This document shows, one piece after another, positions 13,301 to 46,981 of a stretch of 64,000 nt of DNA. Numbering within the stretch: position 1 is the first letter of the stretch; each line of letters begins with the position of its first letter. Source of the DNA: Pegea sp. RAD2-039 (Eukaryota; Chordata; Thaliacea; Salpida; Salpidae); assembly GCA_034620365.1 (NCBI GenBank), contig JAQGEQ010000170.1, positions 186,001-250,000 of the forward strand, in the 5' to 3' direction. The notes under the pieces are model-generated. The model worked only from the letters and a program-made list of their open reading frames with translations, ran no database searches and had not been told where the DNA came from. The position numbers and the translations under genes were made by a program.

Positions 13301-16300
13301 AGTTGGACCAGGACTCACATGTCCTCACAAAAATTGACAATCTCGTGTTTGAATGCGCTGCTAGGTAACTACCCGAAGCGATGATGACGTCATCAACAAT
13401 CTGGGTCGTTTCAGGGACAAGCATCGATTGATGTTTGACAAACCAGTGACCATTCGACCTCAAGTGTGGTACACTATCAAGGCCAATATAAATGGACCAT
13501 CAAGTGATTGTGGGTCCGGGGGTTACGAATCTATTACATCAATTGACGGGTTTGTTATCTTCTGACCACTGTCCTGTGGCCCACTTTTCACTTCTTCAAC
13601 TTTTTCAGAGTGAAGTTTTCTTTTCGCCGGTCTCGATTGTCTAACAATGGGACAGATGTGGCTGCAGGACAATTACCCGAGCTTCTTTACACTTTGCCGT
13701 CTACTGTAGACCAGATTCAGAAACTGACCAGTGACGAGGACCAATTAAGTCGAGATGCGCGTGACTATGACTTAGTGGACTCGCTGAAGCCGAGTTTTTT
13801 TGACAACTTTGCGACGGTAATTGTCTATCAACTTATTAACTGAGTAAGTGCTAATCACTTGTCAACCACAGGAAGTGGTTAGAACATTGCCCTATTTGAT
13901 GAAGTGGTCACGGACTTCCTTCTTTACTGATTTCTATGATGGTTTAGTAGTAGAAGATGGTGACCAGCCGACCACACCTCTGCCAAAAGATTTTGACCAG
14001 CCGACCACACCTATGCTAGAAGATGGTGACCAGCCCACCACACCTATGCTAGAAGATGGTGACCAGCCGACCACACCTATACTAGAAAATGGTGACCAAC
14101 AGACCACACTTATGCTAAAAGATGGTGACCAGCCCACCACACCTATGCTAGAAGATGGTGACCAGCCGACCACACCTATACTAAAAAATGGTGACCAACA
14201 GACCACACTTATGCTAAAAGATGGTGACCAGCCCACCACACCTATGCTGGAAGGTGGTGACCAACAGACCACACCTATGCTAGAAGATGGTTACCAGCCC
14301 ACCACACCTATGTCAGAAGATGGTGACCAGCCGACCACACCTATGCTAGAAGATGGTGACCAGCCCACCACACCTATGTCAGAAGATGGTGACCAACAGA
14401 CCACACCTATGCTAAAAGATGGTGACCAACAGACCACATCTATGCTAAAAGACGGTGACCAGCCGACCACACCTATGCTAGAAGATGGTGACCAGCCCAC
14501 CACACCTATGTCAGAAGATGGTGACCAACAGACCACACCTATGCTAAAAGATGGTGACCAACAGACCACATCTATGCCAAAAGATTTTGACCAGCCGACC
14601 ACATCTATGCTAGAAGATGGTGACCAACAGACCACACCTATGCTAAAGATGGTGACCAGCCCACCACACCTATGCTAGAAGATGGTGACCAGCCCACCAC
14701 ACCTATGCTAGAAGATGGTGACCAGCCCACCACACCTATGCTGGAAGATGGTGACCAGCCGACCAAGACCGCCCCAAAAGATATTGACTTGCGAGCCACA
14801 ACTCAGCCAGTAATTGTGTCTGACAACTTAATCAATTTGTCCTTCATCTTTTCATCTTGTATCCGTTTCTGTCGCTTCGCTTTTCTTCATCCGAGTAAGT
14901 CCATCATTCAACATCTTTTTGCAAAATGCTGACGTCATCACATCGCGTAGGTGGGCGTGACTTACGCGAGAAGTCTGCAGCTTATAATGAGATAGTTGAG
15001 GTGATGAAGCAGGTCATTTCTGATGGAGAAGTTGATAGCGCGATCAAAGACGCGAAATCAATGAGCGAGAAAGATCGGTGGTTGATTGAAGACTTCGCGA
15101 CCAACGTTGTCATGGAGATTCATCTCACTATGATCCGCTGCATCCATCTCTTCTTCCCGGACTCTCAGATGAAATGGAACTTTCTTCAACAAGCTCTCAG
15201 TCAATATCTCAATGTCAGTCTCCCGGATTTCTTGCATCTTTCTGATCCTTTGCATCCTTAGAGCTCAGGTGAAGGCAGCAGCTGTCGTCTGATCGTCATG
15301 GCGCTTGATGCGCTTCGACAACCCGCGATTGATCGCGTTGCTTGCCTTCCACTCTTCCCCCAGAGTTTTTCAAACCTTAGCGGTAATTTTATGGGTCAGT
15401 TCCCGCCAATTGCTGCTCAAATCCCCGATGTTCATGTCGTTTTTGTACAGATTGTGAATCTCTGCCGCTGTACAGCTACAAAGAAGTCGTCAACGCCCTA
15501 ATCGCGATTGCATCGTCTTCACATCAATCTATATCATCTCGCGATGATTATTTCAAAGAAGTACATCTTTGTTCTTAAATTAAACATCCAGTTGATATAT
15601 CGTTGATCTCCAGCTTGTCTACTCACCTCGCAACAGCCTCACTCATAGCAGTTGTTACTTTCTCTCAGTTCTTACTTCCGATTTCGTTTACCGCCAACGA
15701 AAGTCGGCCGAAATGATCCCAAAAAGATCAGATGAGGATCAGAATGAAACTCATCATCTAAACAGGTTTCATCTTCATCTTTTCTCACTCTCATCTTCTT
15801 TTAATCCTCATCTGATGTAGATTTGAGATCCAACATTCAGCTGATACTTGGCCTGACTATGGTGCCCTCAACAAGGACAAGATAAGTTTCGAAGTTCGCA
15901 ACAATGACGTCATCTTGTCGGGACTGGGTTTGTATGGTAGTCCCAACAACCACCTCACCTACACTGTCCAAATAGTGCGTCCCACACTTGTGGTTAACTC
16001 ATGTAACTTGTGGTCCTCATTAGATGACCACTAGTACCATAGCAACGAGGACAGTTTTATTGGAAACGAAAGGAACCATCTCACCAGTAGATTGCAGTAA
16101 CCATGTAGCAACCATCTTACTACAACCACCTGTCACACTCAATGTAACCATCTCACTACAACCATCTCATCATACTCACCACTGTTTCCAACAGAAAGGA
16201 CGTGTTTACACAATTGCGGTCCACATGGTCGGTGGTCGGACGTACAGTGGTGAACAATGTAACTTTGACCTAACTGGACCAGATGGAACGGAATTTATCT

Positions 16301-19300
16301 TCCTGACAACGAACAACATCAAGCACCAACAAATTCCCACTTTCATCTACCACAAGTAATTAGTCCACTTGTCCACCTGACCACTCGTCAACACCTTTTT
16401 CCATAGAACTGGACTGGATAGCAACAAATGTGTGACAGGTGGTGATGTGACGTTGAACACTAGTGATGGTTGGCATGGTGATGCTGTTAGTAACGATCAA
16501 GCGGTTACCACTTACCATCAACATGCTATCAACATTCTAACTCGTATATCTCAATCACTTGCTCACCACTTGAGGTCGCTCTTTGATACTGGTTGCTGTA
16601 AGTGATTGCCATGACAACCATCATCGATTAATCGATCTTTTTCAGCTTTTGATGATCTGAAGCAAGTAATTAGAAGTGATCTTGTAAGATGTCTTCTTCC
16701 ACAGCTCTTTCACAACATCGGTGATCTTCATCTTCTCCTGCATCCGTCTATTCATCTTTCATGTCTTTGATAGTTGCTATGGTAACGGAAAGCGTGCAGC
16801 GCTCATATCAGGTGCTGGATCTCATCAAGGAGCTTCTTCCACTTCTCATTAAAGCTCACACCAGGCTACAAGTCGAGACGAAAAGCGTCGATGACGTCAT
16901 AAAGCTGATCGTTCAGAGCAAACATCCGTATGATGGCGGTAGAATGCAGCAATACAAAGTGAGTGAGATCTTGTTCTGAAATCTTCATCCTGATCATCTC
17001 CTCATCTTTTCAGGCATCTTTTCCTTCATCTGTGTCTCATATGCTCCTTGAGTTTGATGTTCAATGTCAAACAGCTCAAAAAGAAGATTATTTGGAAGTA
17101 TTTGCAATCAAGCCCGGATCGGTAAGATCTACATCCATCGCTCATCATTCTTGTTTTGATCCTCTTTCATTTTGATCTTTATCTTTTTAGGATCGACGGA
17201 TTCGGATTTTGGAGCAGATGACCGGAAAGGATAACTGGCCGCTTGAAGCTTGCATGATTCCTGGTAAGCTCTTTCGTCATCAATGACGTCATCACCCTCA
17301 CCTGTGTCATCAATGACGTCATCAACAGGTCATCAACTGGAGTTTGTTCTTACTTCTTCATCAGATTACCAGAAGAAAATTGACGTAAATCCTGAAAACT
17401 TCTTCGGGTTTCGTTGCCAAGTAACAGGTTCATCGTTGATCTTCTGGATCTGATCTTCTGGATCTGATCTTGTCATGTGATGCAGGTTACAAGCCTTCAA
17501 TGAAGCGAGACGCGATTTCGCGACTAATCGACGAAATGTTGAATATTTCGAATCAAGCAATCGTCGCCCTTTCCAAGCATTCAATCACCAGTAGGTGGAA
17601 GTATCGTGGTGATGACGTCATTACAACTCGTTGATTTCAGCCAATGAGATAGAAGAAGGAAATTCGAGTGAAGTGGAGAAAACGTTCGAACAATTTGCTG
17701 ATCTCCTTTACTTCGGAAATCATCTGGAGAACTTTCCTACTCTCGAGATGTTGATGACGGATGAAGTGCCCTTCAACCAAACTTGCCCCATCAAACAATT
17801 CCTTCGCGATTTCATACAAGGTGATGTTAATACAAAAGGTGGTCACCTAGCCAGGTCAGTACTGAACCAACTGTCCCATGGGCTGGTATAAATTAGATGA
17901 TATGTAGATGGTTACAACCACAACCATATGTTGATCCATCTTGTTGCATCTTACAAGTCAATTCAGCTTCATTATTTCAATCTCTGCCCACCTCAATCAC
18001 CATACTAACCCGAGACCAAAACGAAGTCCCTGTCCACGTTCCTTTACTTAGTGTGGAGCTTCTGGTCCGTTGTCTTGCCTGTCATGACTCAACCACACCT
18101 AGAGGTAACCACAGCAACCACAACTACCCATGGTAACTGTCGTATGTTTACAGAACTTTCTTCACCCACCCATAATGAAGTACCAACTGAATGTTACAAG
18201 GAGGTGATGTTGGCGGGTTCCAAGTATCATTGTATTTCGATGATGACGTCATATCGCGATTTCTCTTTCGAAGAACTTCGTCTTGCTCTTCCCCGACCTG
18301 AAGAAGTTGAAGTCAATTGTGCCAAAGATGGTTTGTTTATTTGGCCCACTAGTTCATTTTTAACTACCTGTCCATTTGTCCACATCCTATTGACCACCTG
18401 TCCACAACCTCTTGACCACCTGTCCACTTGTCCACAACCTCTTGACCACCTGTCCACTTGTCCACAACCTCTTGACCACCTGTTCACTTGTCCACAACCT
18501 CTTGACCACCTGTCCACTTGTTTACATCCTATTGACCACCTGTCCACTTGTTTACATCCTATTGACCACCTGTCCACTTGTTTACATCCTATTGACCACC
18601 TGTCCACTTGTTTACAGGCTTGTACCGAGCTAAATGGGTGCCAAAGAGCTGTGGTAAGTTTAAACTGCAAGTTTTGTTGGATGGTCACCTTGTTGGTCCA
18701 AGCTGTGAAGTGATGGTCAAGCCTACACCAGGAGGCAGAACTGAGCAACCAAATCCGGGACTCTTGTCAACTTCTGGGAACAGCAAGTCCCTAGATGAAG
18801 ATCAAAAACTTCAATTTGTGAAAACTGATAGCAAAGCTCTTCGAATCCGAAGTAAACCTTCCCTAATGAGTGAACAGGTACAAACCCAGCCCTGCCCCTC
18901 AACCCTAGTCCTGCCCAGTCCTATCACCACCTAATACTTCTTGTAGGTGGGTTTGGTAAATCAGAATGACGTCATCCAGTTCTCCACGGAAGTGAACAAT
19001 TCCGAAGGATGTTGGGTTCGCCTCGCGAAGGTTTGTCTTTTATGACGTAATCGAATCACTTACATGACGTCATCACCAGGAATCGATGAGCAAGTACTGT
19101 GATAGTGATGACGTCACTGAAGCCTTCTGTCTGCGCTACAACAAGCTTTCTGATCACACGCTCTTGTCACCGATGATGACGTCATCAAAAACAGCAGCAC
19201 TTCTTCGAAGCATGAAATCCCCAATGACGTCACATCCGCTTCCTCACGGCGTCGACTCGTCACGCATGATAACGCGAGCTGTGAAGAAAAAATCGCTTCT

Positions 19301-22300
19301 CACTACCACTCGCGACGCCGTCGTTGCCACTAGCGACCAATTAGATACTGCCAAATCGAATCAAGCTAATCTGAGCTCCTCCAAGAAGACATCAAAGAAG
19401 AAGAAGTCAAATGACGTCACTATCTCGCGCAAGCGTCCATCGTCCACAAAAGTAAGAAGCGATGACGTCACAACTGCGCAAGTGACACAAAAGTAATCCT
19501 TAAGTTGCCAAAAAAGATGACGTCATCCGCAAGAGAAGACACAGTGGACGATTTTCTGAAAGATAAAGTGATCCGAGGAGGTTCAAGCGTCGCCGTGATG
19601 ACGTATATCGACGACCCAGACCAATGTCCCACACGCCCCAGTCTCGTCAAATCGTGAGTAGTGACGTCACTGCACTTGCTGATTGCTGATTGGTTGTTTA
19701 AAGTCATTCGAAGACGACGAAGAAGAAAATTCTGGAAACTTTGAATCAACGTCAAATCCCCGTCAACCTCAAGTAAGTGAATGACGTCACAGTCTGATGA
19801 CGTCACCAAGCGCGCTACTTGCAGACGAACTCACAAGGTGGCGCTCGCACCTTCGACGGCTGAATGTGTTCGCGCGGTGTTTGCTGCGTTACTATGGCAT
19901 CAACATCTTGATAAATACGCCATCAAGTGTTCAGAATACCTCTTACGTCATCACGTCTCGAAAGATGAAGTAGAGACTACCAGTAAGCCATTGACGTCAT
20001 CACAATTAGTCTAGTGACCCTCATCTTTAACAGCGACCTCTAGTGATGAAACTGTGGCATCTTCCTCATCACGACCCTCTCTTCCAAGCTCCCTTCACTT
20101 CCTCATCCAACTTTGGAGCTTAGTTTCTGAGCAAGTCGCGACTGAAGCGGGAAAAGTTCAAGTAGGAAGTTGCCTGCTGGCTTGTGTTTAGTCGTGTCAC
20201 GTGGCCTGCTGTGTGTGTGACGTCACATGTGGTGTCAGTCCAGCAGGTGGCGTGGTGCTGGTGGACTGAGGCGCCCTCACCCTTTTGATTCGTTCCAGAT
20301 GAATGATTTTAAGAAGGTGGTCGAAATGGAAGAAGTGAAAAAAGTCCAGAAGCTTCCAACACCTACTCCTCTTCAACTTCCTAATCCGATCATTGCTCCT
20401 CCTCAAGCTGTTCTTCCAGCTCTCGCTCTTCAAGCTCCTCTTAATAATGCGGTTCATCGTCGAGTGATTAGAAGAATAGCGGACGCGCGAAGGATGTTTG
20501 TTCACGCCATTGATGAGCCAATTGGGCATAATGGTGTTCCAGTTGAGATGCAATTCTTTATATACTCCCTTCTGCCCCATTTGATGTCGCATGTCTTTGT
20601 CTTCCTCTCTTCTCTTGCATCCAATTGATCTTTCATTGATCTTGATCTACAGATGAACAATCCACAACGTCAACAGATGAGAAATCTTCGTCATCTTCAG
20701 CGTAATGGCAAGCCTGGGGTGCTACAGATGCGACAAATCATGAGTCAGGTCGCTGAGTATCTCGATGATCCGAGCCGCGAAGCCGGAGGAAGACTTTTAC
20801 CGATGGCGCAAGGATACTTTCCGATGGGAGCGGATCAGGTGGAAGTTGTAGATAACTTGCAAGTCACTCGCTATAATCAAAACAAAGGTGGTAAGCTAGT
20901 GGCGTGTCCTTTCTGCTCCGAGAAGGTCAAGGTGATCAGTGAACACATGAAAGAGGTAAAGACTCATCGAAGATTCGCGTGAGTTGATGATTCGCGATGT
21001 TGTCATAGAAACATCCTGGATGTGGGAAGTTGTGTCAAGGACAAGGATTCAACAAGAAGGGGGAATATAAGTTGGGATGTGAGGTCATGTGTGGGTGGTC
21101 AGATACTAATGGTCACTGGTACACGATGTGTCATGGATGCAGGAACAGGTGAATGACGTCATGTAGGGATTTGTGATTGGATGTAAGGTTGCAGATATAA
21201 TTCGGAGAAACCGGATAAAACGAAGAGGATGAAAGATGAGGTCGCGAAGATGAAGATACAAAATAAAGGGAAGCATCTCATCTCAACTTACAAGGTATCA
21301 TCTCATCTTCTACATCTTTTATTACTCTTTTTTCTTATAGATCTTCAAAGAACACGCGATCTTTCTACTTGATCTTGACCGAGCCCCAAAAAGACTCTTG
21401 ATTCGAGCTTCCAATGATCCCGATTCCTGCGATTTTGTTGATCTGATCATGAGTGATCTCAAAGATTTGTGGAATGGAAAACGAGATCGAGGTTTGATTG
21501 TGATCTTGATCTTTCGGATGTTGCAATATCTTCTTCAGGTCAATCTTCGCTTCCTCCACCTTTTTTTCCAGTATCTGCTCACTACATCAATCCTGAAACA
21601 TCTAAAGATCCCGAATCTAAGTGAGTTTGCTTCTAAACTTCACCCCAAAAACTCTTCCCAAAATCTTCATCTTCAGATCTTGCTCAGAAGATGTTCAGAT
21701 GGAAGTTTCTTCTGAATCAACAGAGAAACAGGACCCCAACGAAAGTAAAAGATCTTTAAATGATCATTTGATCCTTGATTTGATCTTTGCAGACATGATC
21801 CAGGAAGAGATCTCGGATTCATTTAAAGCTGCTTTCAAAAAAGTCTTCCGCTTCACTTCCTTCATCAGCAACGCGACTTGTGACGTCATCGACTTACGTC
21901 ATCATATATTGAAAGTTCAACGAGCTGCAACTACTCGAATCTACTGTATCCAGGTGATCACTGTCACTATGAAGTCATCATGACGTCATGATCACCCGCT
22001 ATCTGTTGCTAGGCGCTGGCGTGGATGCTGCAAACAGTGACGTCACAATCTCATTTGCATACCGCCATGTGGACCTTCCTGCAAGTTCTTCTATCTACTA
22101 GTTCTGCCAAAGAATCGTCGTTTGGTGACGTCATGCGGGTTTGTGATGACGTCACAGTTGTTGATATGTTTAATTCGATGACGTCATCGACAGAGTCGAC
22201 GGCTAATGGCTGAAAATCCCTACAAGAAGTTGATGATGTGTGGATTTGATCTCTTGCATCCGCTCATCACTTCCTTTCATTGTTTTCTTGCTAGCATCGC

Positions 22301-25300
22301 TGACGTCATCAGTCACGTGACGCCGAACAGTTCATGTCAGCTGACAGCGATTAAGTTTGTGACGTCATCCACCTTCGGATGTCCTTCTGATCTTGTGATC
22401 TTTTGCAGATGTCTCAACATACAGATGCTCCCAACAGATCACAAGTTTCTGGCTGACAGCAAAATTTTTGATGAGTTGTGTGAGATCCTCTCGAGCGGTG
22501 CTGACGTCACTACAACGTTGATGGAAGATGAAGTTGGAAAAGTAGAAATGATTGAAGATATCTCGTCAAAGATCGAGATCACAGCATCCAGCAACAAAGC
22601 GATGACAAAAAGTCTAGTTGATGGATCAACCGAAACCTTTTGGGAGTCAGGTGTGTCATGGTTGAGTGAACATGAGTGATGTGAGTCATGGTTGAGTGAA
22701 CATGAGTGATGTGAGTCATGGTTGAGTGAACATGAGTGTTGTGTGTCATGGTTGAGTGAACATGAGTGATGTGAGTCATGGTTGAGTGAACATGAGTTGA
22801 TTGATTCAGGAGATGGAGATAAGAATCGCTCAAAACTTCTGACCCTCAGTGGAAGTGACATCAGTGAAGTTTGGATTCACATCGATAACACGCGCGATTC
22901 ACAGGTTTGTGACGTCATCTCTCATTTCGCTGTAACATCTGCTGATTGGTCAACAGAAAAAGGTTTCAAAGGTCAACTTTTTGGTGCTCAGTGACGAGTC
23001 CGAATCATGGAAGATGCTTCTCGCGAAAAGTGTTGCAGTTTCATTTGTTGGTTGGATCGAATGTCGATTAGCGCGCGTTTGCAAGGTCAGTGACGTCATC
23101 ACCGCTATAAGACCACGTCACGTGACTCTTGTAGAAAGTGCGAGTTGAACTTCGTGGAAATGACAACGGATTGCGAGTTCGACAAGTTCAGGTGTTTGCA
23201 GCGAAAACGCGCGAAGTTGAAAGCGCTGGAAGTTGTTCGAATCATCTGGAAATGCTCGCTACATTTGCTAGTCTTTCATGTCAGGTGATGACGTCACTAA
23301 CGCGATTATCTTCTGCTGATCACGATCATCTGTAGGTTGTCATGGAAAAAGATGAGTTTGGAGGAAAAACAAAAGTTGTAAGAACGCAGGAATACTGGAA
23401 GCAGGTGACGTCATGAACGCGACACGCGCTATTCAACTGGTACCCCTGATTACTTGCAGGTGATTACAAGTATCTTGGATGCGATCACACATGAACAGAA
23501 GAAACTCTCTAGTATCATCAACTCTCCTTATATCAAGGTGATCACGTCACAGACGCTATGACGTCACTAACTTCGATGACGTCACAGAAATACTCTGATG
23601 ATTTCTGCTTGGAGTTGGTGACGTTGTTGATTGACTGGATTGAAGCTGATGCTAGCAACATCCGCCTCTACACATCTCATCGATCTCTTGCATCCAATCT
23701 TCTCATTCTTCTTCATATATCAACTTCTCGCGTTCAAGAAGTGGTTAGTGACGTCATCAGTGACGTAATTGACGCGCTGTGACTCACATGTTGTTATGCA
23801 GACGATTGATTTGTTGAAATTGATTTTTTATGATCATCTTCCTTCATACTTTTGTGATGAACTTTTAGGACTTGATGTTCCAAATCTTCAAACAGTCTTT
23901 GATCACCACCAGGTGGCGTAGTCGCGCGCTTTAAACTACTTTTTTATTCCGGATTGTTTATAGAACGATCAAGCGCCACCTAGTGACGACTTTTCTGTGT
24001 TGGATCCCTTCTTAGCAGTGATCGCGAAGTCTTTGATGGTTCAGATAAAAGGAACAAATCTCCCCTCATCACTGGAAGTTGCTCCGAAGTCCCTGTGGAG
24101 GAATCGGAAACTTTGTACGATCGATCTTCAGACCTCTTTCAGATCTTCTTCAAATGATGCGGATTTATGGTTTCGAGGTCCCAAACCAAGCCTGACGGTT
24201 GTCAAAGGAGTCCTGAGCCTCTTTTCCGACATCATGAAGGTTTGATCCTCATCTGATCCTCATCATTTGTTGATCATGTGTCTTTCATGAAGACTGGTGT
24301 TGAATGGAAGAGAGTTGCAAACGCTACGATCTCTCGTGCTTTACTCAATCTCACCAAGTTAAGTGAGAAAGATCGAGAAGCAAGTGCGATCACTAGAGGG
24401 CGCTACTTCTGGCTAGCACTCGCCGCCTTATGTGTGTTGGATAAGAGTCACGTGGATATGTTGACGCCATTAAAAGAAGCTACTGGTAACCATAGTAACA
24501 AGGTCAGTGAACGATCGATCGTTGTTCGAGAGCTTCTCTATTCCCTCTTCAATTTGTTCATTTGATTCGCTTCGTTATGATCAAGTAGATGAAAGGGTGC
24601 TTGATAGCGTCCTTCTTTCCCCCTTCCTTACTTCCTTCCTTCCTTTATATTTCAAACCGCTTCGTTCATCTCATTTTTGTTCAAACTTCGACCAGCTCAT
24701 AGCTTTAGTTACCAGCTAGCAACCAGATACCAGCTAGCAACCAGATACCAGCTAGCAACCAGATTTCAGCTAGCAACCAGATTTCAGTTAGCAACCAGAT
24801 ACCAGCTAGCAACCAGATTTCAGTTAGCAACCAGATACCAGCTAGCAACCAGATTTCAGTTAGCAACCAGTGATTTTTTCTAAGGCTACCAGAGATGGCT
24901 CCTTGTATCCAACTGCATCGATTTTTATCGTTACAAGACAAAGAGCGAACTCATATCTTCACATTTCTCATCGAGAATCCTCACGAAGTTTCAACCTTTG
25001 ATGTTCGGTCACGTGAGTTCCACTTTGCTGGTCACCGGTGGTACGTTTACACTGGCAAGCCCAACAACGAGTACTTCAGGTGAGTTGTCACTGTAGTTAC
25101 CATGTCCAACTGTCCACTAGTTTCTATCTACGGATCGTCAACTTGGGAAAAGATGTCCGCGTCCACACAGCTTACTCCTTCAACGTCATCAATTTGGTCA
25201 ATTGTCAAAACAATTACACCTACTACAGTCCTCCTAGTGGTCGCGTATTCTCGCGTAATGACGACGCGTTGTCATGGGGATGGAAGGAATTCATCCGTCG

Positions 25301-28300
25301 AGAGGTGAGGACCACACAGTGACCCACAACTACTACTGACCACCTTTGGGACAGACTTTATTGAAACCAAATGGAGGTTTCTTGTTTGAAGGCAACAAGG
25401 TTCTAATTGAACTTGAATGTAAATCATACAAGACTGTAATTGAAGAAACTGTCCAATTACCACCTCTGTCTCCGGCCCATCCTTTCCCCATGGTCCACAC
25501 TTCACCATTTAGCGTTGGTGGATTTGCGTGGCAGGTCAGTGATCTGATGACGTCACTATTGGATTCAATACGTCCGTTTTAGATCCGGGTATTCCCCGAT
25601 GGACCAGATGAGGACAACCAGGGCAATGTGGCTCTGTTCTTGCACTGTACCACAGCTAATCATCTGGTCAAAGTCAAAGCAAAATTTCTAATCGAAGGGC
25701 AGGTGAGTTGTCCACTTTACTTTGACCACACTTGACCTACTGTCCTTGTCTAGCCGTCCCCGGTCCTCTACGAACACACATTTGCCGGCAACTGTATCAG
25801 TGAGATGCCCAGCGGCGTGGCTTTTCCAAATCGAGGTGACTTCATGCGTTCCCTCACGGACCAGAAGCTTCGGGTCGGTGTCGAGTTTATCTCCGTCACT
25901 GAGGTCACTGACCACCAACTACTGACCGCCAATTACTCATATGTATCTGTTATCAGGTCAACGAGATCCATGTGACCCTTTCTGAGCCGCAAAATTGTCC
26001 CACAGTTTGTGTCACGCCCTTTGAAGACTTGACCGGTTGTCCTTGGTTACTTAAAACCCTTCAATCGTCGAAGCTGAAACTGAAACTGGACCAGAGTGAA
26101 AAGACCACATCTGGGCTCGTCGAGTTCTATCATCGCCATGTCATCTGGAATGCGACGCTTGTAGCGCCTGCATCCGACGACTCTTCCGTCAATGTGTCCT
26201 TAAACACCAAAGGAGCTCTCATCGGGTACTTCGGTGAAAACTGGTCAGACGCTGACGTCATCAAATCTGACGTCAGTGTTGACGAACTGACCATGGACGG
26301 CAACTTGTACCGGACCGATGTAGATGACGGTTACGAACGGTTAGTAGTGATGACGTCATCCGTGGACCACTTTCGTAAACGACCATTTTGGGCAGGTACT
26401 CGTACATCTCACTTCACGTCGAGTTGTTGTCCAATCATCTACTCTATAAAACTCCTGCACCTTCACCCACGGCTGATCGTGAACGCAAGTTTCTTTATAA
26501 CGCTCGGTTGGTTGCTATGACGTCATCGCTGTCAATTAATTGTGATGACGTCATCAGGAAGGAGCGTGCGACCGCGCAACAGCGCTTCAAGCAGCTTCAA
26601 CGTCGAGTGGTGGCGCTTGAGAGTAAATGCTCCGCTCTGCAACAACGCCCGCGCCTCGCCAGTGACGTAGGTGATGACGTCAGCGGTGATGCCACCAAAG
26701 AAGAAGGTTCATCAAATAGCGCGAAGACTCTAATCCATTTGATGGCTGATCTCGCGACACGAGACAAAGGTGCGCTTCGAAGCACTTGATGACGTCATCA
26801 CCACTTTTCAATTTAGGAAAATCTGTGAGGAGTTCGCGGAAGATTTACGAAGCTCCGAAGATCAGCGAGAAAGAGCTGGGTCGGAAGTTTGTCGAGTTCC
26901 GTCGCGATTTCAACACGTATGACGCCACTAAACGCGATGATGACATCATCTTTGATTGACACGTGACAGGCTGGTCGTGGCGTCCACTGCAGATGAAGAG
27001 AAGATGGCCGAAGCTCGCGTTGTGGCCCGGACCACACTTGATGGCGTAAAACGAGTGTTGGAGACAAGGACCGGACTGCGAGTCACGCGTACATTGTTAT
27101 CCGGCTCCCTGGGCACCAACACATGTTGTGTCTCTCGTTGTGATGCTGATCTTCATCTTTTCTCTCCCGATATCCCGAGAGTTGCTCACGTCACGTGGTT
27201 GCCATCGTTACTCGTCGCCCTACGTCACGTCATAGAAGATGCCACCGCTGATGGCCAACTTAATGACGTCACTCACCTCACTTCGAGGTACTTTTACACT
27301 TCGGTGTTGATGACGTCATCGTTTCTCGCTTTCCATCGCAGTTCTCGCGGAATCCAGTTTCGCGGCTTCAATGACGTAATCGAGTTTGAGGTGTTTGTCT
27401 CGCATGACTGGACACACAACAGTGATGACGTCACCAGTGATGGCGGTTACGACGCGCTATATGAGGAGTTGCTACGGCAACGAACATCGGAAGTTCTTTG
27501 TTGGTTCTCACCGGATGTTGCTCATCTTCAAAGGATCTTCATCCAAGAACAACCTCCGCAAGTTGGTCACGTGATGATGACGATGCTGACATCACGTGAT
27601 GATGACGTCATCAGGTGCTGAGCGTGATCAGGGTCGTGAAACAATGGCGAAGTTGGTGTGATTGGAAAGATGACAAATGGAAACCTCCATCTTATCTTCT
27701 TGCACTTCTCGTGATTCGCGCGTTTGAGAACGCCTGCCACGTCATCGATGGGAATTCCCCTGATGAAAAAGTGATTGTGAGATACTTCATCAAGTTGGTC
27801 CTTTCAACAGCGGTCCACAAGTTGTTTGTCCACATACTCCAACTTTCTATTTCATCTACTTGTTGTCCACAGGCCAACTCGTGTCCGCTTGTCCTGGTCA
27901 CGATTTTATGACCCAACCGAGTACAACATCGAGTACAGTGGTCGCGAGTCACGTGACTGTCCACCAATTGTTCAGGACCCAGCCAACCCGGCTAACAACG
28001 TCGCCGAACGACCTATATCTTGGGTCCTATTTCGTCGTCATGTTGACCTGTTGGGTCATCGTTTACATCTGATGAGAGATGGGGTCCTTTTACCCTGGTC
28101 AGGTTCACGACCCACGAAAGATCGAAGTTAGAAAAAAGTAGAGAGTTGATAGTCAGTCAGTCAGTCAGAAAGATCCCCAGAACCTCAGATACGCCCTAAA
28201 AACTTCTTTGTTCAAATCTTTTCATCTTTGCTCTGAGATTACCTTTTCACCTTGATGTTGATCTTTTCTTGATTTTCTCTTCATCTTGATCTTCAGCGGA

Positions 28301-30196
28301 TCTGTGAAAATCATGATGACGAGATGACACCCGCTATTGTTCGTTGCAACACTTGTGGCGATCTTTGTTCGCGATGTGATTCAGTTCTTCATCTTAATCG
28401 TAAAACTCGTTCCCATCAACGTCAAGTTAGTCTTCTTCATGACATCATACGCATCCCTCCTTATTTGCATCTTGTAGATCTTTAAAGAAGAGCAACAAGC
28501 GATCCAAGTGGAACTTCACGAAGGATGCGGACGTCTCAAACTCTTCTGGCTTCTCGCGCTCGTCGATTCACGATCTTTGAAAGCTGTCATCGAGTTCAAA
28601 GGTCATGATATAGGTTAGTTGCCGGTCAGTCCACCTTCTTCTAATCATTTGCTTGTTGGTCAGAAAATTCAAGCCGACCAAACGCCACTCTGACGTCATC
28701 AGGAAGTTATTGTCGTTTTTGTGGCGTCAACAGCGAGACGCTTGCCTTGACTGGAGTTTGTGCTGATGAAGTTTGTCGCCAATTCGCTTCTACTGTAAGT
28801 TGCTATGAGACTTGTTGCTATGAGACTTGTTGCTATGAGACTTGTTGCTATGACGACTTGTTGCTATGAGACTTGTTGCTATGACGACTTGTTGCTATTT
28901 TAAACGCTTTTTTGTCGAAGGCTTGTTTAAAAGTTCTGAGTTGTGGACATTTTTGTGGAGGATTAAATTCTGATGAAAATTGTCTTCAATGTTTACATTC
29001 TGAATGTAGCAAAGATTTAAAACAGGATGCTGAAGATCTTTGTATGATTTGTTTCACTGAGACACTTTCATCTGCTCCTGTTATTAAGGTGGGTATCATT
29101 CGACTAAATCATTGTGACCAATCACAACTTTTTACCAACAGCTGGATTGTGGTCATCTTTTTCACTTTCATTGTTGTGAAAGTTTATTAAAGAATAAATG
29201 GAATGGACCTCGAATTACCTTCGGGTTTCTAAACTGTTCCATTTGCAAGGTACCTTCCTCACATCTATGTATTCCTCATCTTCATCTGTGTCTTCTTTAC
29301 ATCTTCATCTGTGTCTTCTTTACATCTTCATCTGTGTCTTCCTCATCTTTAGGTCGAGATGTCTCATCCATCTCTCGAGAAGTATCTTTCTCCTCTACGG
29401 GAACTTCAACTTGAAGTCCGTCGAAAAGCTTCTCAACGTCTTGAGTACGAAGGACTTGGTAAATGTAAAGCAATCACTTCACCGGATTCGCGCTTCTTCC
29501 AGAAGCGTCTTGAGTACGCTATCAGCAAATACGCCTACTACATGTGCTACAAATGTAACAAGGTACTTCTTCTGCCCGTCACTTCGTCGTGATGACGTCA
29601 TATACGCAGGCGTACTACGGAGGTGAAATCCGATGTGAGTTGGAAGCGGACTTGAAGGATGACTTTGAAGAGCGCGAGTTGGTTTGTGGTGCTTGCTCTG
29701 ATGTCGCACGTGCGCAAATTTGCACTAAACACGGAACCGACTTTCTCGAGTACAAGGTAATTACTTTCAATTTCCTCAAAATATCATCCTAAATACCTTT
29801 TAATGTAATTGAAACTACCTATAAATTTAGTCCAACCCACCTCTTAATCTGCCTCTGACCACCTCTAAGCTTGGTCCTGACTATGTCTAAATTTAGTCCT
29901 GACCACCTCTAAATTTAGTCTTGACCACCTCTAAACTCTGGTCTTTGTTACAGTGTCGTTATTGCTGTTCTGTTGCTGTCTACTTTTGTTTTGGAACCAC
30001 CCACTTCTGCCGAACTTGCCACGATGATTTCCAACGAATTGTTGGTGTCCCCAAGCATATCCTGCCCCCTTGCCCAGCTGGTCCAGGTGCTCAAAAGCTC
30101 CAGGGCACTGAGTGTCCACTACATGTGATCCATCCGCCGACCGGTGAAGAGTTTGCGTTGGGTTGTGGTGTTTGTCGAAATGCAAATACTTTTTAA
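7305..30196 (+). CDS. MYCBP2: MYCBP2/Highwire/RPM-1-type PHR E3 ubiquitin ligase (multi-exon)
   Basis: Giant RCR-type E3 ligase. Family members esterify ubiquitin onto Ser/Thr and control axon growth, synapse formation and axon degeneration (DLK and NMNAT2 are known substrates). The first exon is taken as 7305-7454, then 7574-7657, followed by several dozen short exons. Order seen: N-terminal helical region (7.3-8.7 kb), RCC1-like repeats (8.76-11.25 kb), PHR1 (about 13.05-13.75 kb), helical stretch (13.87-15.5 kb), PHR2 (15.8-16.6 kb), filamin-like fold with [10 protein letters not shown] (17.9-18.7 kb), SH3-like [14 protein letters not shown] (18.8-19.1 kb), Cys/His region [14 protein letters not shown] (20.9-21.2 kb), DOC-like TETFWES (22.6-23.3 kb), [18 protein letters not shown] (24.4 kb), then the catalytic end (28297-30196). 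Continuity across repeat-bearing introns is supported by family motifs, for example SPE|LAVPL across 11964-12794. No disabling mutation was found. The start codon and several exon edges are uncertain. Intron 24503-28296 holds a nested gene. Confidence 0.9.
8757..11250 (+). other. RCC1-like domain-coding exons of the PHR ligase
   Basis: These exons encode RCC1-type blades: [72 protein letters not shown] and [18 protein letters not shown]. The characteristic Cys-rich insert of the PHR family ([18 protein letters not shown], then [16 protein letters not shown]) lies between blades at about 10.27-10.48 kb. The order matches vertebrate MYCBP2, which makes the assignment firm. Confidence 0.85.
11415..11521. 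repeat. 16-bp tandem repeat (GTGACGTCATCAGTGT) in a PHR intron
   Basis: Six to seven head-to-tail copies, some with TAACGTCA in place of TGACGTCA. The unit contains the CRE-like palindrome. The array starts at a GTAAGT donor and ends just before the next acceptor, so it makes up almost the whole intron. Confidence 0.9.
11985..12770. repeat. 14-bp minisatellite in PHR intron 11964-12794
   Basis: About 55 degenerate copies of a unit like CTACTGTCCACCAA, with variants TACCGTCC and CCATCAC. The array sits between a donor after CCT GAG (11963) and the acceptor before CTT GCT GTC (12795). The protein reads SPE then [13 protein letters not shown] across it, matching the MYCBP2 family, so the array is intronic. 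It has no stops in any + frame, which produces three overlapping spurious reading frames. Confidence 0.92.
13050..13750 (+). other. PHR domain 1-coding exons
   Basis: Reads [56 protein letters not shown] and [20 protein letters not shown]. This is the beta-sandwich PHR fold found twice in PHR ligases, with the conserved GGGW, GGRGEY and SNNGTDV signatures intact. It is split by several short introns. Confidence 0.88.
13953..14768. repeat. 33-bp minisatellite, about 25 copies, probably intronic
   Basis: Unit encodes [11 protein letters not shown] in one frame (33 nt, 11 codons). A one-base shortening of an A-run near 14644 breaks that frame within the array. A phase-1 intron from GAT G|GTTTAG (about 13941) to CAGCCAG|TA (about 14810) removes it and restores the frame as [15 protein letters not shown], which agrees with the spacing expected in the family. 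The donor is weak (GTTTAG), so retention in some transcripts is possible. Confidence 0.88.
15826..16600 (+). other. PHR domain 2-coding exons
   Basis: Encodes a second PHR-like module with [20 protein letters not shown] followed by a YTVQI strand and further strands ending near a Q-I-L-T-R segment. It is more divergent than PHR1 and its exon edges are less certain. The position between the helical region and the filamin-like region matches the family order. Confidence 0.6.
18366..18616. repeat. 30-bp minisatellite in PHR intron 18332-18617
   Basis: About eight copies of a unit containing CACCTGTCCACTTGT then CCACAACCTCTTGAC, with a TTTACATCC variant in the last four. Donor after GAT G (18331) and acceptor at 18617 keep frame (AKDGLYRAKW), so it is intronic. 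Confidence 0.9.
22560..23340 (+). other. DOC/APC10-like domain-coding exons of the PHR ligase
   Basis: The motif [12 protein letters not shown] is typical of the APC10/DOC jelly-roll. It is followed by [30 protein letters not shown] and [20 protein letters not shown], as in MYCBP2. Intron 22651-22809 interrupts it exactly after WES and carries five copies of a 30-bp repeat. Confidence 0.75.
22651..22800. repeat. 30-bp tandem repeat, five copies, in a PHR intron
   Basis: Five near-identical 30-bp copies built on TCATGGTTGAGTGAACATGA fill intron 22651-22809 between the two halves of the DOC-like domain. Opposite-strand frames across it (repeats of [10 protein letters not shown]) are artefacts. 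Confidence 0.92.
24711..24872. repeat. 18-bp tandem repeat, about nine copies, just upstream of the nested gene
   Basis: Unit ACCAGCTAGCAACCAGAT with TTCAGTTAGC variants. Lies in the host intron 20-180 nt before the ATG of the nested MATH-OAS gene. Each unit contains CAG, AG and TAG words near the usable 3' splice sites, so it could affect acceptor choice; that is inference. Confidence 0.9.
24895..28131 (+). CDS. Nested MATH-MATH-coiled-coil-OAS-like nucleotidyltransferase
   Basis: Lies wholly inside PHR intron 24503-28296, same strand. Exons (all phases agree): 24895-25079, 25121-25304, 25355-25534, 25583-25702, 25754-25903, 25957-26339, 26396-26769, 26817-26916, 26970-27561, 27615-27793, 27873-28131. 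Two stopless introns inside these (26507-26557 and 27288-27341) are probably removed, giving about 866 aa. MATH 1 (about 15-150): [36 protein letters not shown] 2 (about 165-275): [27 protein letters not shown] related strand-rich part follows, then a short coiled coil (about 438-475). The OAS-like part (about 545-866) has LSGSLGTN, 12 residues later DAD (D600/D602), then [42 protein letters not shown] and [11 protein letters not shown], the OAS1 order and spacing. Family enzymes make 2'-5' oligoadenylates on sensing dsRNA. The third catalytic Asp is Glu here (about E664), so activity is uncertain. No clear promoter or AATAAA seen. Confidence 0.82.
28150..28168. repeat. GTCA tetranucleotide repeat
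   Basis: About four and a half copies of AGTC/GTCA directly after the stop of the nested gene, still inside the host intron. Confidence 0.85.
28797..28903. repeat. 15/18-bp tandem repeat in a PHR intron
   Basis: About seven copies of TTGCTATGAGACTTG, some lengthened to TTGCTATGACGACTTG, between the exon ending FAST (GTAAGT donor at about 28795) and the exon starting [14 protein letters not shown] (28921). Confidence 0.9.
29274..29352. repeat. 23-bp tandem repeat in a PHR intron
   Basis: Three copies of a pyrimidine-rich unit (TTCATCTGTGTCTTCTTTAC plus ATC) form the polypyrimidine tract of the intron between the RING exon and the exon starting [12 protein letters not shown]. Confidence 0.85.
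29840..29942. repeat. Degenerate 23-25-bp repeat in the last PHR intron
   Basis: Four to five copies built on TAAATTTAGTCCTGACCACC in intron 29757-29953, immediately before the last exon. Confidence 0.8.
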
Positions 30197-31947: not shown

Positions 31948-34110
31948 TCACTTTTCTTGAAGTCTTTCGATTTCTCGCCCCATAAGTTCCAAACTTTCTT
32001 TCAAAGTGATGTTTTTTAGGATTGTATCTTCCAATACTGATTGCATCTTACGATTAATCTCCATCGAAAGATCAAGGGTAAGAGCAGGAGCTCTCACTCT
32101 ACCTCTAGTGTCTCTGTTCTTTGGAGGAGCAAGCACTCCGGCTTCCTCCCTTAAAATATAATTTTCAATAATTTTTTGTTTTCTTTTTAACTCATCAAGC
32201 AAGCTATCGGCATGTTCATTCAAAAAATCGATTTTTTCGTTCTTTTTCGCGTGAATTTGTTGCAAACGAACAATTCTTTCTATCAGCATTTGTCGATCAA
32301 AGCTATCTGAACCCGCAATAGCTGTAGTTGGAACTAAATCATGTTCACTGACTCCATTTGTCATTGAAGAGGTCTCCACTGAAATCTTGTCTAGAGAGGC
32401 ATTGGAGCTTGTTCGTGATCCTAAACTAATTACCTCTGAAGGATGTTGCTGGTTTGAATTCTGTGAATTCATTTTATTTTCTATTTTCTTTTTTGCTTGC
32501 TGTAGTTGTCTAGTCAAGTCTTTAATTTTTCCAATATTTTTTCTTCTGATTGTTTTCATTTCATCTTTTTGTTCTTCTATATTTAAAGTCATCTGACAAA
32601 GAGCTTTCTCTTTGTCTTCTAACTTCATTGTCAACTCTTCTATCAAATCTTCCTTCTTCTTTTCTGTTTGTTTTCTTTCTACAATCAACATGCAACGCTC
32701 ATTTTTCAATTCTTCAATTTCTTCTTCAGCTTTAATCAATTGTTCAGCTTTATTTTTTAACTCATCTACAGTGACTGTTAACTCACTATTTTTTGAGCTT
32801 ACTTTTTCTGTAAACAACCTCAGTTCCTGCTCTTTCACTTTTCTTCTTTCTAAATCTTCCATAATTGCTTCTTTCTCGTTATCTTTTACCACCAAGGATT
32901 TATTAAGTTTGTCGATCATCACGTTTAGTTCATCTTTTTCACTTTTTAATTCTTCCATATAATTTAACTTTTCATTTAACTGAGAAGCATTTAACTTCTG
33001 CTTATTCATCAACTCTTCATATGTTCTTAGAACCACTAAGTTCTCATTTCTTTCTTTTTCCCACAAATTTAATCTAGCCAAACAAACTGTATTTTCTTCT
33101 ATTAAGTTTTTATGTTTTTCTTTCAAAGAATTCATTTCTTCAGTTTTACATTTATGAATTTCTTGTAATTCTTTCAATTCTGTTTCTTTTTCCTTTAAAA
33201 CCTGAATCTTATTTTTAAGTTGAATATCCAAAGAATTCGATTTAATTTCTTCATTTTCTTGATATGTTTTAATCATACTTTGACAATTTTTCCTGATTTG
33301 TTCAGTTTCTTCTTTAGCTTGTTGAACTTCTAGCTGCATCTTTTCACATTTATCTTTTGTTTCTTTATGACTTTCAACTTCTGATTTCAGTTTATTTTGA
33401 GACCACCTTACTTTTATGATATGAGAATCAATCTCATCTTTGCATTTTAATTTTTCTTGAGTCAATAATATATTTTCCGCAGTTTTTTTTTCAAGTAAGG
33501 CTTTGGTTTTATTAAAATCTGATCTAATAGTTTTCATTTGGTTTAACAATTTTTCTCTTTCCTTTGTAAAAGTTTTTATTTTATCTTCATTAAAAGTTTT
33601 ATGTTTTTGCAAATCCAATATTTCTTTCTCCTTTCTAGCAAAATTCATGACCGAAGTCTGTTGATTATTAGTAACAAGAGTTAATTTACAATTCAATTCT
33701 TTTACTTTCTTTTCATTTTCATTTTTCAATTTTATCATATTTTGTTCTGCAGTTGTTTTACAAGAAGAGAAATTATCTTTATGAGTCTTCACTTTATCCT
33801 TCAAATCTGAAACTTCTTTTTTCAAATCCATCATCAACAGATCGGCTTCTTTAATTCTTTTCTGATACTGATATTCTGGTATCCATTGGTGGATCTTATT
33901 CATTTCAACTAAAATCTGTTTTATTTGTTCAAAATCATTTTTAATATCAATTGATGTACCGTCATTAAATGACAAAGATTTTAACGATTTTTTTACAACT
34001 TTTTCTGAGTCTTCAACTGTTTCAATCTGTGGAATATGTTGAACATGATTTAAAGCATCTACAGATTCATTTTGATTTCCATTCGAATCACTAATTGAAG
34101 ATTCCATCAT
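31948..34110 (-). CDS. CCDC186: CCDC186/CCCP-1-like coiled-coil protein (single exon, 720 aa)
   Basis: Uninterrupted 720-aa reading frame starting at two adjacent Met codons. Residues 1-60 are acidic/Ser-rich. About 80-560 is almost continuous Lys/Glu-rich coiled coil with heptad leucines. A low-complexity linker follows (SQNSNQQHPSEVISLGSRTS). The conserved C-terminus holds DSFDRQMLIERIVRLQQIHA, IIENYILREEAGVL, LTLDLSMEINRKMQSVLEDT and LKNITLKESLELMGREIERL, which I recognise as the C-terminal signature of CCDC186 (C. elegans CCCP-1). That protein is a Golgi/endosome RAB-2 effector needed for dense-core vesicle maturation. Human CCDC186 is about 900 aa and multi-exon, whereas this copy has no introns and a shorter N-terminus. 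A retrocopy or intron loss is possible. Upstream 5'UTR exons are not visible. Confidence 0.8.
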   Translation of the reverse strand: MMESSISDSNGNQNESVDALNHVQHIPQIETVEDSEKVVKKSLKSLSFNDGTSIDIKNDFEQIKQILVEMNKIHQWIPEYQYQKRIKEADLLMMDLKKEVSDLKDKVKTHKDNFSSCKTTAEQNMIKLKNENEKKVKELNCKLTLVTNNQQTSVMNFARKEKEILDLQKHKTFNEDKIKTFTKEREKLLNQMKTIRSDFNKTKALLEKKTAENILLTQEKLKCKDEIDSHIIKVRWSQNKLKSEVESHKETKDKCEKMQLEVQQAKEETEQIRKNCQSMIKTYQENEEIKSNSLDIQLKNKIQVLKEKETELKELQEIHKCKTEEMNSLKEKHKNLIEENTVCLARLNLWEKERNENLVVLRTYEELMNKQKLNASQLNEKLNYMEELKSEKDELNVMIDKLNKSLVVKDNEKEAIMEDLERRKVKEQELRLFTEKVSSKNSELTVTVDELKNKAEQLIKAEEEIEELKNERCMLIVERKQTEKKKEDLIEELTMKLEDKEKALCQMTLNIEEQKDEMKTIRRKNIGKIKDLTRQLQQAKKKIENKMNSQNSNQQHPSEVISLGSRTSSNASLDKISVETSSMTNGVSEHDLVPTTAIAGSDSFDRQMLIERIVRLQQIHAKKNEKIDFLNEHADSLLDELKRKQKIIENYILREEAGVLAPPKNRDTRGRVRAPALTLDLSMEINRKMQSVLEDTILKNITLKESLELMGREIERLQEK

Positions 34111-37100
34111 AAATTTATTTACTTAATCAAAAACTTATTAAAAAATTAGATAATGTAGCAAATAAATTTCATTTTAAACATAGATGGATAAAACCTTTAA
34201 TATAAGAAATCAATTTTTATTAAAATCACAAATGACAGAAAGTAATAAATCTTTGAGTAACCTTATGTGCTAACAATGACTAATTAAAACAAATTGTAAT
34301 AACATAATTTAAAACTTTTGATTTCATAACACTATCTACTTAATAAAAATTAGTCAAACTATAAATTCATAAAAGTTTTCATTATACACTCATTTATATA
34401 ATAAGAATAGAAAATCATAATGATATAGTACAGTCAAGCACTTAACTACTTCTAAAACATCAAGTGCTAAGTAAACAGTTAATTGGAACACTCAAAAAAA
34501 CATTTATTATGACAAAATGATATTCATAATTAAATATTATCATACAAATATTTTAAATACCACAAAATTCTTAAATCATATCATTCTATAACCTTGAAAT
34601 ATACAAAAATTATTTGAATTGAACTGTTTGAATGCTTTTTTTTAAGTAGATGTTTACTACTAATGTTTTTATAAACATCATAAAATACTTGTAGGTTATT
34701 TATAAAATTGAATATAAGATTACAACTACTATCTTTAAACTTTTAAAAAATATATATTTTTACTATAATTTAGTCCACATTTTAAGTAGGTTGTTACAAA
34801 ATTGCCAATTTGACAAAACTTTACTGCTAAAGATTCACATTGTATTTATTCTAATGGCAATATTTATATTAAAAGATATATAGAATCAAAGTGAATTTAG
34901 TAATTGATTTGTACAATAATAGAGATTCACTAAACCTTTCAAAAATCAAAAAAAATTTAATAAAGCAAAAAGTTTTTTTATTTACTAAATCAAAAAATAT
35001 TGTTTTACTTTTTATTTAACCAAATTTATAATATTGATAACTAATTTAAGATAAATTATTTACCTTAGTTATTAACAACAAAACTGAAATAATAAACATT
35101 AAAAAGTTCATTTTTTAGCCACTAATCCCAATAAAATCCTTTTTTAATAATAAATATTTAAAAAATGTTTACACAAGTCAACCATAAAGTATTAAATTAT
35201 TTGGTATCCAATTTTTTTAAACTTAGTAATATTTTGTAAATTATAGCAATTAGCTGAAATTTTATGAGATAATAGAAGTGGTTTGAAAAGAAGCTCCAAT
35301 ATTAAACAAGTTCAACCTTTCATGATCTGCTTTTGATGGATAAATCCACCTGTACACAAATCAATCAGACGTGAAAAATGGCTAAAAGCAAAATATTTTT
35401 TTGTATTATAAATACAGATGTAAATAAATTAACATATGTAAATACGATCCAAATATGAATAAATCATCTGTTTATAAAAAATAAATACTAACAAATAAGT
35501 CTGATAAAATAAATTTTAGGGTTGGGTTAATGAGCAAAAAATATATATTATACGTTAAGTATAACAACAAGTGTGAGTTTTAATTGCTATCTGCTATTAC
35601 AAACAATTAACAGAGTACTTGTGTCTCTTAGATATCTTTTGATATTATCTATAAAAAAATACAAAACTAAAAGACTTGTAGTTAGGTAAAAACATAATAT
35701 ATTGAAGATCATGTAAGCTTCAATTATTTATTCAATCTGTTTTGTGATACTAATCAAAGTATTGGTTGTTAAGCTGTTGATAGTAAGCTTACGTATACTT
35801 ATCCTACTACAACAATTCTATGCAACTCAAGTTTGAATTTTACGCGAATTTGTGCAGTATCTAGATCATTTTCAGGCCATATTTAGAAAATAGAAAACAC
35901 TTTTTTCAAATTGATTTTTGCTACATTGCGCTACATTTTTTTACATCGTGTATTTGAAACCCATAATTACTAATCATACAATTCATCTCTAAAATAAACA
36001 AATTTTAAGCTTCAAGCTGTTGAATCTACTTAATCGGCTTTTATGTAAACATCTGTCACGTAGGAAATAAAGCTTCGTTAAAGCTGCATATCAAAATGCT
36101 TATTGCGGTTGCCACGTTTGTATTCTGAAAAATAAAAAAATTAATATTTCTTACAGAATTGATTATATTTAACCTGTAACATTTTCCTAGACCATTTACT
36201 ATCATCTGAATAACTGCTTAAAAACTGGTTTAATTACTTTTTTAACAGCTACCTATTGGTTGCAAGAGTTGTTGCTATTTGATAAAGTTTGTTACAACCA
36301 ACAATTAATATTTCAATTGCAATTTTCATTGTCGTTAGATGCTAGTACTTGAACTGATAAAACTTGCAACCAACAAATTTCAGTATAGTTTTTTCTATAA
36401 GTTTTTATTAAAAGGCTTAACTGAAGAAATTGGTTATTTTCATTCTTGGCTTTGTGAAGTTACTTTTCTATAAATTAAAATTATTGCTTCATACCATATT
36501 AGTTGGTTGCAGATGAAAGCTTTATAATAAAGGTTGTTTTTTTGATCGACTAACTTTTGTATTATTTCCATAAATTGTCGTTAAAATACGAAAAAAACCT
36601 TTGATCAATATTATCACTGAAGCTTATAGTTATCATTGTTTCTTTAAAGAACATTCCTTACTCTTATCAACTATATGGAAATTTTTTATTTAATGTACTG
36701 AATAATTTTGGATTAAAACTCGCTAAAAATTGATAAAAATATTATCTGTTAGTTTGAAAGACCTGGTGTTTTCATTTATTGCAATGGCATATTACTCAAA
36801 AGTGTTAAAAAGTAGGATTTCAAAATATTTGTAAACTGCTTTTACATAGTTTAAAAAAAGAATATTTTTTGTAATTATGTTTGAATTTAATTCAAAAAAC
36901 TGATGAATACACTAAAACTGAAAAAGTTGAATGCAACACTGATTAGTCAAAAATTACCTGAGAAATAATTAGATTTCTTTGTTTAAGTCATGGTTTATAT
37001 TATCAAACAACTCGTTGCTTAACTTGTAAAAGAAAACATATATGTAGTTAAAACAAAATGTGTGCTTATGATGATTTACTGCTCCTATTTTAAAGTTTAT

Positions 37101-46800: not shown

Positions 46801-46981
46801 TCTACTGAAGGAAGACCGCATCCGAAAAATTCCAAAGATTTATATTGTTTATTTGAGTGACCTTAGAGATAAAATTTCAGATCATGTCCCTAGTGAGTGG
46901 ATGAACAAATCTACTCACTGCTTCAACCTTCAGTCTACAGATGAATACAACTCTTTGTATATAGCTCTTTCAGAGCGATAA
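43816..46981 (+). CDS. IL-17 receptor-like protein with SEFIR domain
   Basis: Type I membrane receptor. Exons: 43816-43972, 44038-44169, 44268-44366, 44674-44777, 45720-45858, 45958-46047, 46337-46414, 46467-46981; all phases agree and give about 437 aa. N-terminal signal peptide (MFCWIFGSFLLKFVLN), then a Cys-containing ectodomain of about 235 aa with beta-strand patterns (SVIYWKYQKIQADWEIAGFY, LTLHFFVQLSSSY) like the fibronectin-III repeats of IL-17 receptors. One TM follows (HLLVVLISLGLLLVVVATGV), a basic stop-transfer WRRRKKQK, and an intracellular SEFIR of about 160 aa in one exon: PRVVVLVSTGDHSPSYGEYA, then SDLVVLFSSPYGV, then KIPKIYIVYLSD. SEFIR domains recruit Act1/CIKS-type adaptors through homotypic contact. 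The last-exon SEFIR arrangement also matches vertebrate IL17R genes. Ectodomain exon 4 has alternative donors. The exact paralogue is unclear. Confidence 0.8.

Follow-up and report, generated by a model that had tools for sequence, protein, structure and literature searches.

In the salp Pegea sp. RAD2-039 a complete gene which encodes two MATH domains and an oligoadenylate synthetase (OAS) domain on one protein was confirmed to lie wholly within a single intron of MYCBP2, on the same strand as its host. The gene was found in a stretch of 64,000 nucleotides (nt) of contig JAQGEQ010000170.1 (positions 186,001 to 250,000, forward strand; G000:C25:186001-250000), called the window in the following, and the assembly from which it comes (GCA_034620365.1; 105.7 Mb in 387 contigs) was searched as well. 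Judged from protein alignments, the fusion is conserved among tunicates; these alignments also document a retained GS-DxD core of the enzyme and the change of several residues which in OAS1 bind double-stranded RNA (dsRNA) or relay its binding. The reading preferred here, which is held tentatively and with somewhat less than even confidence, is that the protein may be a nucleotidyltransferase of the OAS class which its MATH module tethers and perhaps also controls, and not a canonical dsRNA sensor.

The nested gene and its relatives

The host intron (24503..28296, plus strand) has a length of 3,794 nt and GTCAGTGA...ATCTTCAG ends, as compared to 53 and 52 nt for the two adjoining host introns. 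By direct reading it is in phase 0 on both sides, the preceding host exon (24293-24502) ending in phase 0 and the next one beginning in phase 0 at 28297. The identity of the host comes from the exons 3' of the intron, which were joined by eye and gave human MYCBP2 as a match (5o6c; E value 2.6e-129); a Pfam scan of these downstream exons listed RING models only, all of them under their cut-offs. In human MYCBP2 the sequences flanking the intron on either side are, as we take it, continuous. The initial annotation, which had placed a complete gene in an intron of this PHR ubiquitin ligase, holds in coordinates, start, stop, and phase; its eleven exons and product of 866 amino acids had to be replaced by 13 coding exons and 875 amino acids.

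The coding sequence runs on the plus strand from the ATG at 24895 to the stop at 28131 (24895..28131) and encodes a protein of the order MATH-MATH-D3-coil-OAS. Exons 1 to 7 are located at 24895-25079, 25121-25304, 25355-25534, 25583-25702, 25754-25903, 25957-26339, and 26396-26506, and exons 8 to 13 at 26558-26769, 26817-26916, 26970-27287, 27342-27561, 27615-27820, and 27873-28131. All 12 introns are of the GT-AG type with a length of 41–56 nt. A model with 12 exons and 883 amino acids was rejected because alignment with three relatives exposed a hidden intron, seen as a 17-residue insertion, and an exon 12 which was too short, seen as a short gap; both disappeared once a 51-nt in-frame GT-AG intron (26507-26557) had been removed and exon 12 lengthened to 27820. 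The 883-residue model had been used for the Pfam scan, the PDB search, the homologue search, and the search of the own genome with the window protein, and the 875-residue model or its halves for the multi-row alignments, the profile searches, the Pfam comparison of four members, and the half-wise PDB searches.

The same architecture was looked for in relatives and was found, in the same order and with similar length, in three full-length proteins: LOC143468872 of Clavelina lepadiformis (P0002; 60% identity over 98% of the query), LOC120348292 of Styela clava (P0003; 54% over 99%), and an entry designated P0001 (60% over 98%). A profile search in which 6,642 candidates were scored returned the same three relatives and nothing further. 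MATH-OAS proteins are already present in two public entries, as uncharacterized proteins. No Ciona protein occurred among the matches, the homologue search being limited to the 7,992 candidates sharing most words and no Ciona genome being searched. In the own genome, searches with the window protein (three regions scored) and with the OAS half of the Clavelina protein (two scored) led to this locus only and yielded no paralogue; genome searching was exon-blind, and the tool used had missed the OAS1_C domain of the nested gene itself.

A fourth related sequence, P0004, was the sole hit of an N-terminal profile search of 3,906 candidates. It comprises 285 amino acids on a JGI contig of 3,359 nt, reaches from D3 to the OAS core, and is identical to the model in 245 of 269 aligned residues. 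Junctions 6/7, 7/8, 8/9, and 9/10 are joined as modelled; the support covers these four junctions, the change in exon 12 lying outside its reach. From junction 10/11 onward P0004 leaves the model and, inspected by eye, resembles a read-through of the next intron. P0001 has 886 amino acids on a contig of 2,948 nt, which leaves less than 300 nt for anything else. We infer, without proof, that both contigs derive from cDNA, in which case one transcript would carry the MATH part together with the OAS part in close and in distant relatives. These sequences bear on the notion that separate MATH and OAS genes were fused by gene prediction. While the Clavelina and Styela entries may themselves be gene predictions, the order and similar length recur in the P0001 contig and P0004 crosses from D3 to the OAS core over four removed introns, so that such an artefact is hardly credible.

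Domain architecture and its conservation

The Pfam scan matched MATH_2 in two stretches (7.6e-19; 68.7 bits, cut-off 32), OAS1_C (5.9e-17; 62.3 bits, cut-off 19.9), and MATH (1.7e-5), and these three families were matched in all four members of the group at E values up to 1. The matches to MATH and OAS domains are far beyond chance. No further Pfam family was listed for the window protein at E values up to 10, including the models for RING/zf-TRAF, BTB, UBL, and cGLR/Mab21 (PF03281).

MATH domain 1 (24970..25411, plus strand; exons 1–3, amino acids 26–142) is SPOP-like. In the PDB searches the N-terminal half came closest to SPOP (8.3e-6 over two stretches; the better stretch alone 0.0059), MATH domain 1 being closer to SPOP than to TRAF. 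Among the MATH loci of the own genome which were tested an SPOP-like locus was the best match of this domain (0.001); its SPOP-like MATH exons are located on the same contig (G000:C25:57806-58384), about 150 kb from the nested gene. MATH domain 2 (25475..25998, plus strand; exons 3–6, about amino acids 164–287) is matched by Pfam in its first part only; the segment alone scored 33.1 bits against MATH_2 (7.7e-8; cut-off 32), and the corresponding Clavelina segment 30.2 bits, which is under this cut-off.

D3 (25999..26506, plus strand; about amino acids 288–437) is a conserved domain which ends at the exon 7/8 boundary, beyond which conservation falls off. It matched no Pfam family at E values up to 10 in the two members scanned. 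A third MATH domain was considered for it and gained no support, as it had neither such a match nor an hhalign match to MATH domain 1 or 2; the one hhalign hit between MATH domain 2 and D3 consisted of the seven residues common to both cuts. The hhalign test was low in power, since MATH domains 1 and 2, both recognized as MATH by Pfam, missed each other. The coiled coil of the initial annotation stands as a predicted helical linker between the MATH module and the OAS domain (26558..26916, plus strand), for which a model of the Clavelina protein, itself of low confidence, shows helices; its coiled-coil matches are weak.

The OAS-type nucleotidyltransferase and OAS1_C domain occupy 26970..28131 (plus strand). 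The profile of the C-terminal halves matched OAS structures over both lobes (OAS2 1.2e-22, OAS1 6e-21) and, weakly, the bacterial CD-NTase CdnC (0.003). The initial description of a single protein with two MATH domains and a complete OAS domain is borne out by the Pfam matches and by the order common to the three relatives.

The two sides of the protein differ in conservation. The Clavelina protein shares 78–80% identity with the other three over the 437 N-terminal columns and 43–48% over the remaining coil and OAS part. Compared with the three others, the window protein has 79–88% identity in MATH domain 1, 71–85% in MATH domain 2, and 74–78% in D3, versus 24–35% in the linker, 34–39% in the nucleotidyltransferase lobe, and 51–59% in OAS1_C; among all four members the linker identity is 24–41%. 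The drop coincides with the exon 7/8 boundary, and an origin of MATH-OAS by exon joining would suit it.

Active site, RNA-binding residues, and possible function

The residues of the OAS half were compared in four rows, in the order Clavelina, Styela, P0001, and window, together with a fragment of pig OAS1, and are given in human numbering; the N-terminal end of the pig alignment (positions N31 and K42) was too poorly aligned for use. The literature is cited from excerpts of the papers. The P-loop Gly-Ser (27103..27108, plus strand) and the DxD motif, in the window a DAD containing the first two catalytic aspartates D75 and D77 (27142..27150, plus strand), are kept in all four members, and so are S63, R73, D75, D77, K213, and Y230.

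In OAS1, K66, R195, and E233 (also printed as E223) have been described to pass the signal of bound RNA on to the active site (PMC11359028), and the basic residues R195-K199-K205 were reported to be essential (PMC6019448). K66 is threonine in all four members and E233 is replaced by A/A/S/A; the second unit of human OAS2, inspected by eye in the same PDB alignment, retains both. Further changes were found at K60 (T/Q/I/L), R201 (glutamine in all four), T203 (D/D/D/P), and K204 (Q/Q/E/Q), and K199 (K/E/N/Q) is lost in three of four. The helix matching pig LQRDF...KHW contains 3–5 lysines or arginines versus seven in the pig enzyme. T190 is alanine throughout and T187 is likewise changed in all four (P/S/S/P); alterations of these two positions have been linked to sponge enzymes which also make 3'-5' products, and the ancestral OAS was inferred to be independent of dsRNA (PMC6307210).

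On this basis the two SPOP-type MATH domains and D3 would constitute a strongly constrained N-terminal partner-binding module which is hard-wired to an OAS enzyme. The helical linker may multimerise the protein, and protein binding by MATH-MATH-D3, or clustering, might bring the enzyme into place and switch it on. The enzyme would then make 2'-5', possibly mixed 2'-5'/3'-5', oligoadenylates, for which the reader would not be RNase L. A more specific version, unlikely as a whole, is a protein-gated instead of RNA-gated synthase, in which MATH-MATH-D3 would recognise a host or viral protein and a sponge-like OAS would supply 2'-5'/3'-5' oligonucleotides for a non-RNase L receptor, the message perhaps being released from the MYCBP2 transcript by spliced-leader trans-splicing.

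With respect to effectors, the sole Ribonuc_2-5A match of the genome (C6:3121381-3121790) is located behind PQQ-like repeats and a kinase. It was rejected as RNase L because PQQ-like repeats before the kinase, judged by eye, indicate IRE1. One Mab-21-type locus was found. STING had no match in the genome in a search which was positive in none of 14 control genomes. RNase L was reported to be absent from the twelve animals of Table 1 in PMC6307210, none of which is a tunicate.

Several points weigh against a tethered, MATH-controlled synthase. The third catalytic position, D148, is aspartate in Clavelina, Styela, and P0001, whereas the window has a GAG codon for glutamate (27388..27390, plus strand) and thus a D-D-E triad, so the window copy may be inactive. 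R195 (K/K/V/R), K206 (K/K/K/L), and R210 (M/K/K/R) are each basic in three of four members, and some positive charge is therefore retained in the groove. The faster evolution of the OAS half would also suit decay, and dsRNA could bind to another surface of the protein. As the exon-blind searches missed even the OAS1_C domain of the gene itself, the absence of RNase L or STING is weak. An AlphaFold model computed from a three-row alignment (mean pLDDT 38.6, pTM 0.27) was too poor for a fold search.

A rival explanation is a pseudo-enzyme adaptor, in which the OAS half would be a degenerate scaffold similar to human OASL and the conserved MATH-MATH-D3 module would do the work, for instance by recruiting a ubiquitin ligase or a partner in signalling to the targets. 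OASLs which lose the three aspartates are described to give up 2-5A synthesis for a function in signalling (PMC6019448), and the glutamate in the window, the threonine in place of K66 in all four members, and the far lower conservation of the coil and OAS half would fit such a protein. This is countered by the intact D-D-D triad of the three relatives and by GS, K213, and Y230, which are kept in all four and are not needed for a pure scaffold; the adaptor appears rather unlikely. Since units of OAS2 and OAS3 devoid of the aspartate set are still counted as OAS (PMC6307210), the glutamate bears on the activity of the window copy and not on homology.

The initial annotation had instead proposed an innate sensor for dsRNA with MATH as a built-in signalling add-on, that is, a canonical dsRNA-activated OAS. 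Membership in the family is clear, R195 and R210 are kept in the window, and basic residues persist at R195, K206, and R210 as described above. Changes of K60, K66, R201, T203, K204, and E233 in all four members, the fewer basic residues of the helix, and, weakly, the fact that RNase L was not seen speak against it and make it quite unlikely. Of that proposal the nested MATH-MATH-linker-OAS fusion stands, and dsRNA sensing in the manner of OAS1 finds no support in the residues.

Genomic surroundings and relation to known systems

A candidate 3' splice acceptor (TTTTTTCTAAG) with a 10-nt leader precedes the ATG (24883..24894, plus strand) and would weakly suit trans-splicing of a spliced leader. 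The acceptor ends in AAG, as does the host intron 24240-24292, while all 12 introns of the nested gene end in CAG or TAG. ATTCTATTTGAATAAG, the Ciona spliced leader as printed in PMC7986045, had 932 and 832 hits per strand genome-wide at up to two mismatches, where the reversed control gave 410 and 436, and forms a tandem array of about 199 bp per unit (G000:C4:1135044-1142217). Together with the relatives, this leader places the animal among the tunicates. All six array copies printed continue directly with GTAAGT, and the array likely represents spliced-leader RNA genes. None of 12 poly(A) signal variants was found by script in 28091-28296. A scan of the 5' flank for bacterial promoters and terminators, which is uninformative for an animal gene, found nothing.

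Between the host exon and the ATG of the nested gene lies an 18/36-bp tandem repeat (24710..24870, plus strand), and other short tandem repeats in the region of the host gene are located at 22644-22797 and 28799-28898 with periods of 30 and 15/31 bp. For the CRE-like palindrome TGACGTCA, noted at 10110-29600, the window as a whole has 66 sites where 0.82 would be expected. All but one of these sites fall into a GC-rich block (about 8–30 kb, GC 0.38–0.51 per kb) which contains MYCBP2 and the nested gene, and 12 are in the nested gene, seven of them intronic and five exonic. CTACTGTCC-type words show a strong enrichment as well, over 10–30 kb of the window. Genome-wide, GATGACGTCATC has 3,824 sites versus four for the reversed control; four loci chosen by the motif had 9–29 sites at a GC content of 0.36–0.45, and six unselected loci 0–2 sites at 0.23–0.32. 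The palindrome resembles the M26 recombination-hotspot motif of fission yeast. Elsewhere in the window an open frame of 724 amino acids (31951-34122, minus strand) had no Pfam match above cut-off, the best being DCD (16.6 bits, cut-off 27), and the AT-rich right part contains a TIR-like fragment (46454-46978; 27.5 bits, cut-off 28) and a cytochrome P450 (49859-50593; 5.1e-54).

As stated initially, no MATH-OAS architecture seems to have been described: a limited search of the open-licence literature found no publication in which MATH is joined to OAS, and the excerpt of PMC10732462, a paper with a single occurrence of the word MATH outside this excerpt, mentions no such fusion. OAS fusions to other modules are already known. 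In metazoan TRADD-N/oligoadenylate synthase proteins OAS is likewise joined to an adaptor domain of apoptosis and immunity, but the domain is TRADD-N, and the excerpt names MATH solely among the partners of TRADD-N (PMC8195603). With vertebrate OAS1, OAS2, and OAS3 (PF10421) the tunicate proteins share the two-lobed nucleotidyltransferase, GS, DxD, K213, Y230, and a C-terminal motif of the DPAxP type; they differ in the MATH-MATH-D3-coil N-terminus, the altered K66, E233, and several groove residues, and, in the window, the glutamate for D148. OASL also combines an OAS unit with a protein-interaction module, which is however a C-terminal UBL and not an N-terminal MATH module; no UBL model was matched here, and DxD is kept.

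Sponge and ancestral OAS resemble MATH-OAS in the altered positions of pig T187 and T190 and in fewer basic residues on the dsRNA face (by the count of PMC6307210, only part of the face being compared here). The comparison follows the description in that paper, in which MATH has no occurrence and a Ciona OAS was modelled. SPOP, in which MATH is combined with BTB, is the PDB entry closest to the N-terminal half, but MATH-OAS has two MATH domains, an OAS domain, and no BTB match.

OAS and RNase L form a central antiviral pathway of vertebrates, to which tunicates are the sister group. A tunicate OAS with its enzyme core kept, its dsRNA relay changed, and a conserved partner module attached would offer a direct test of the wiring of OAS enzymes prior to RNase L or next to it. 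Opposite predictions for such a test follow from the residues described here, a dsRNA-independent enzyme on the one hand and a dead adaptor on the other.

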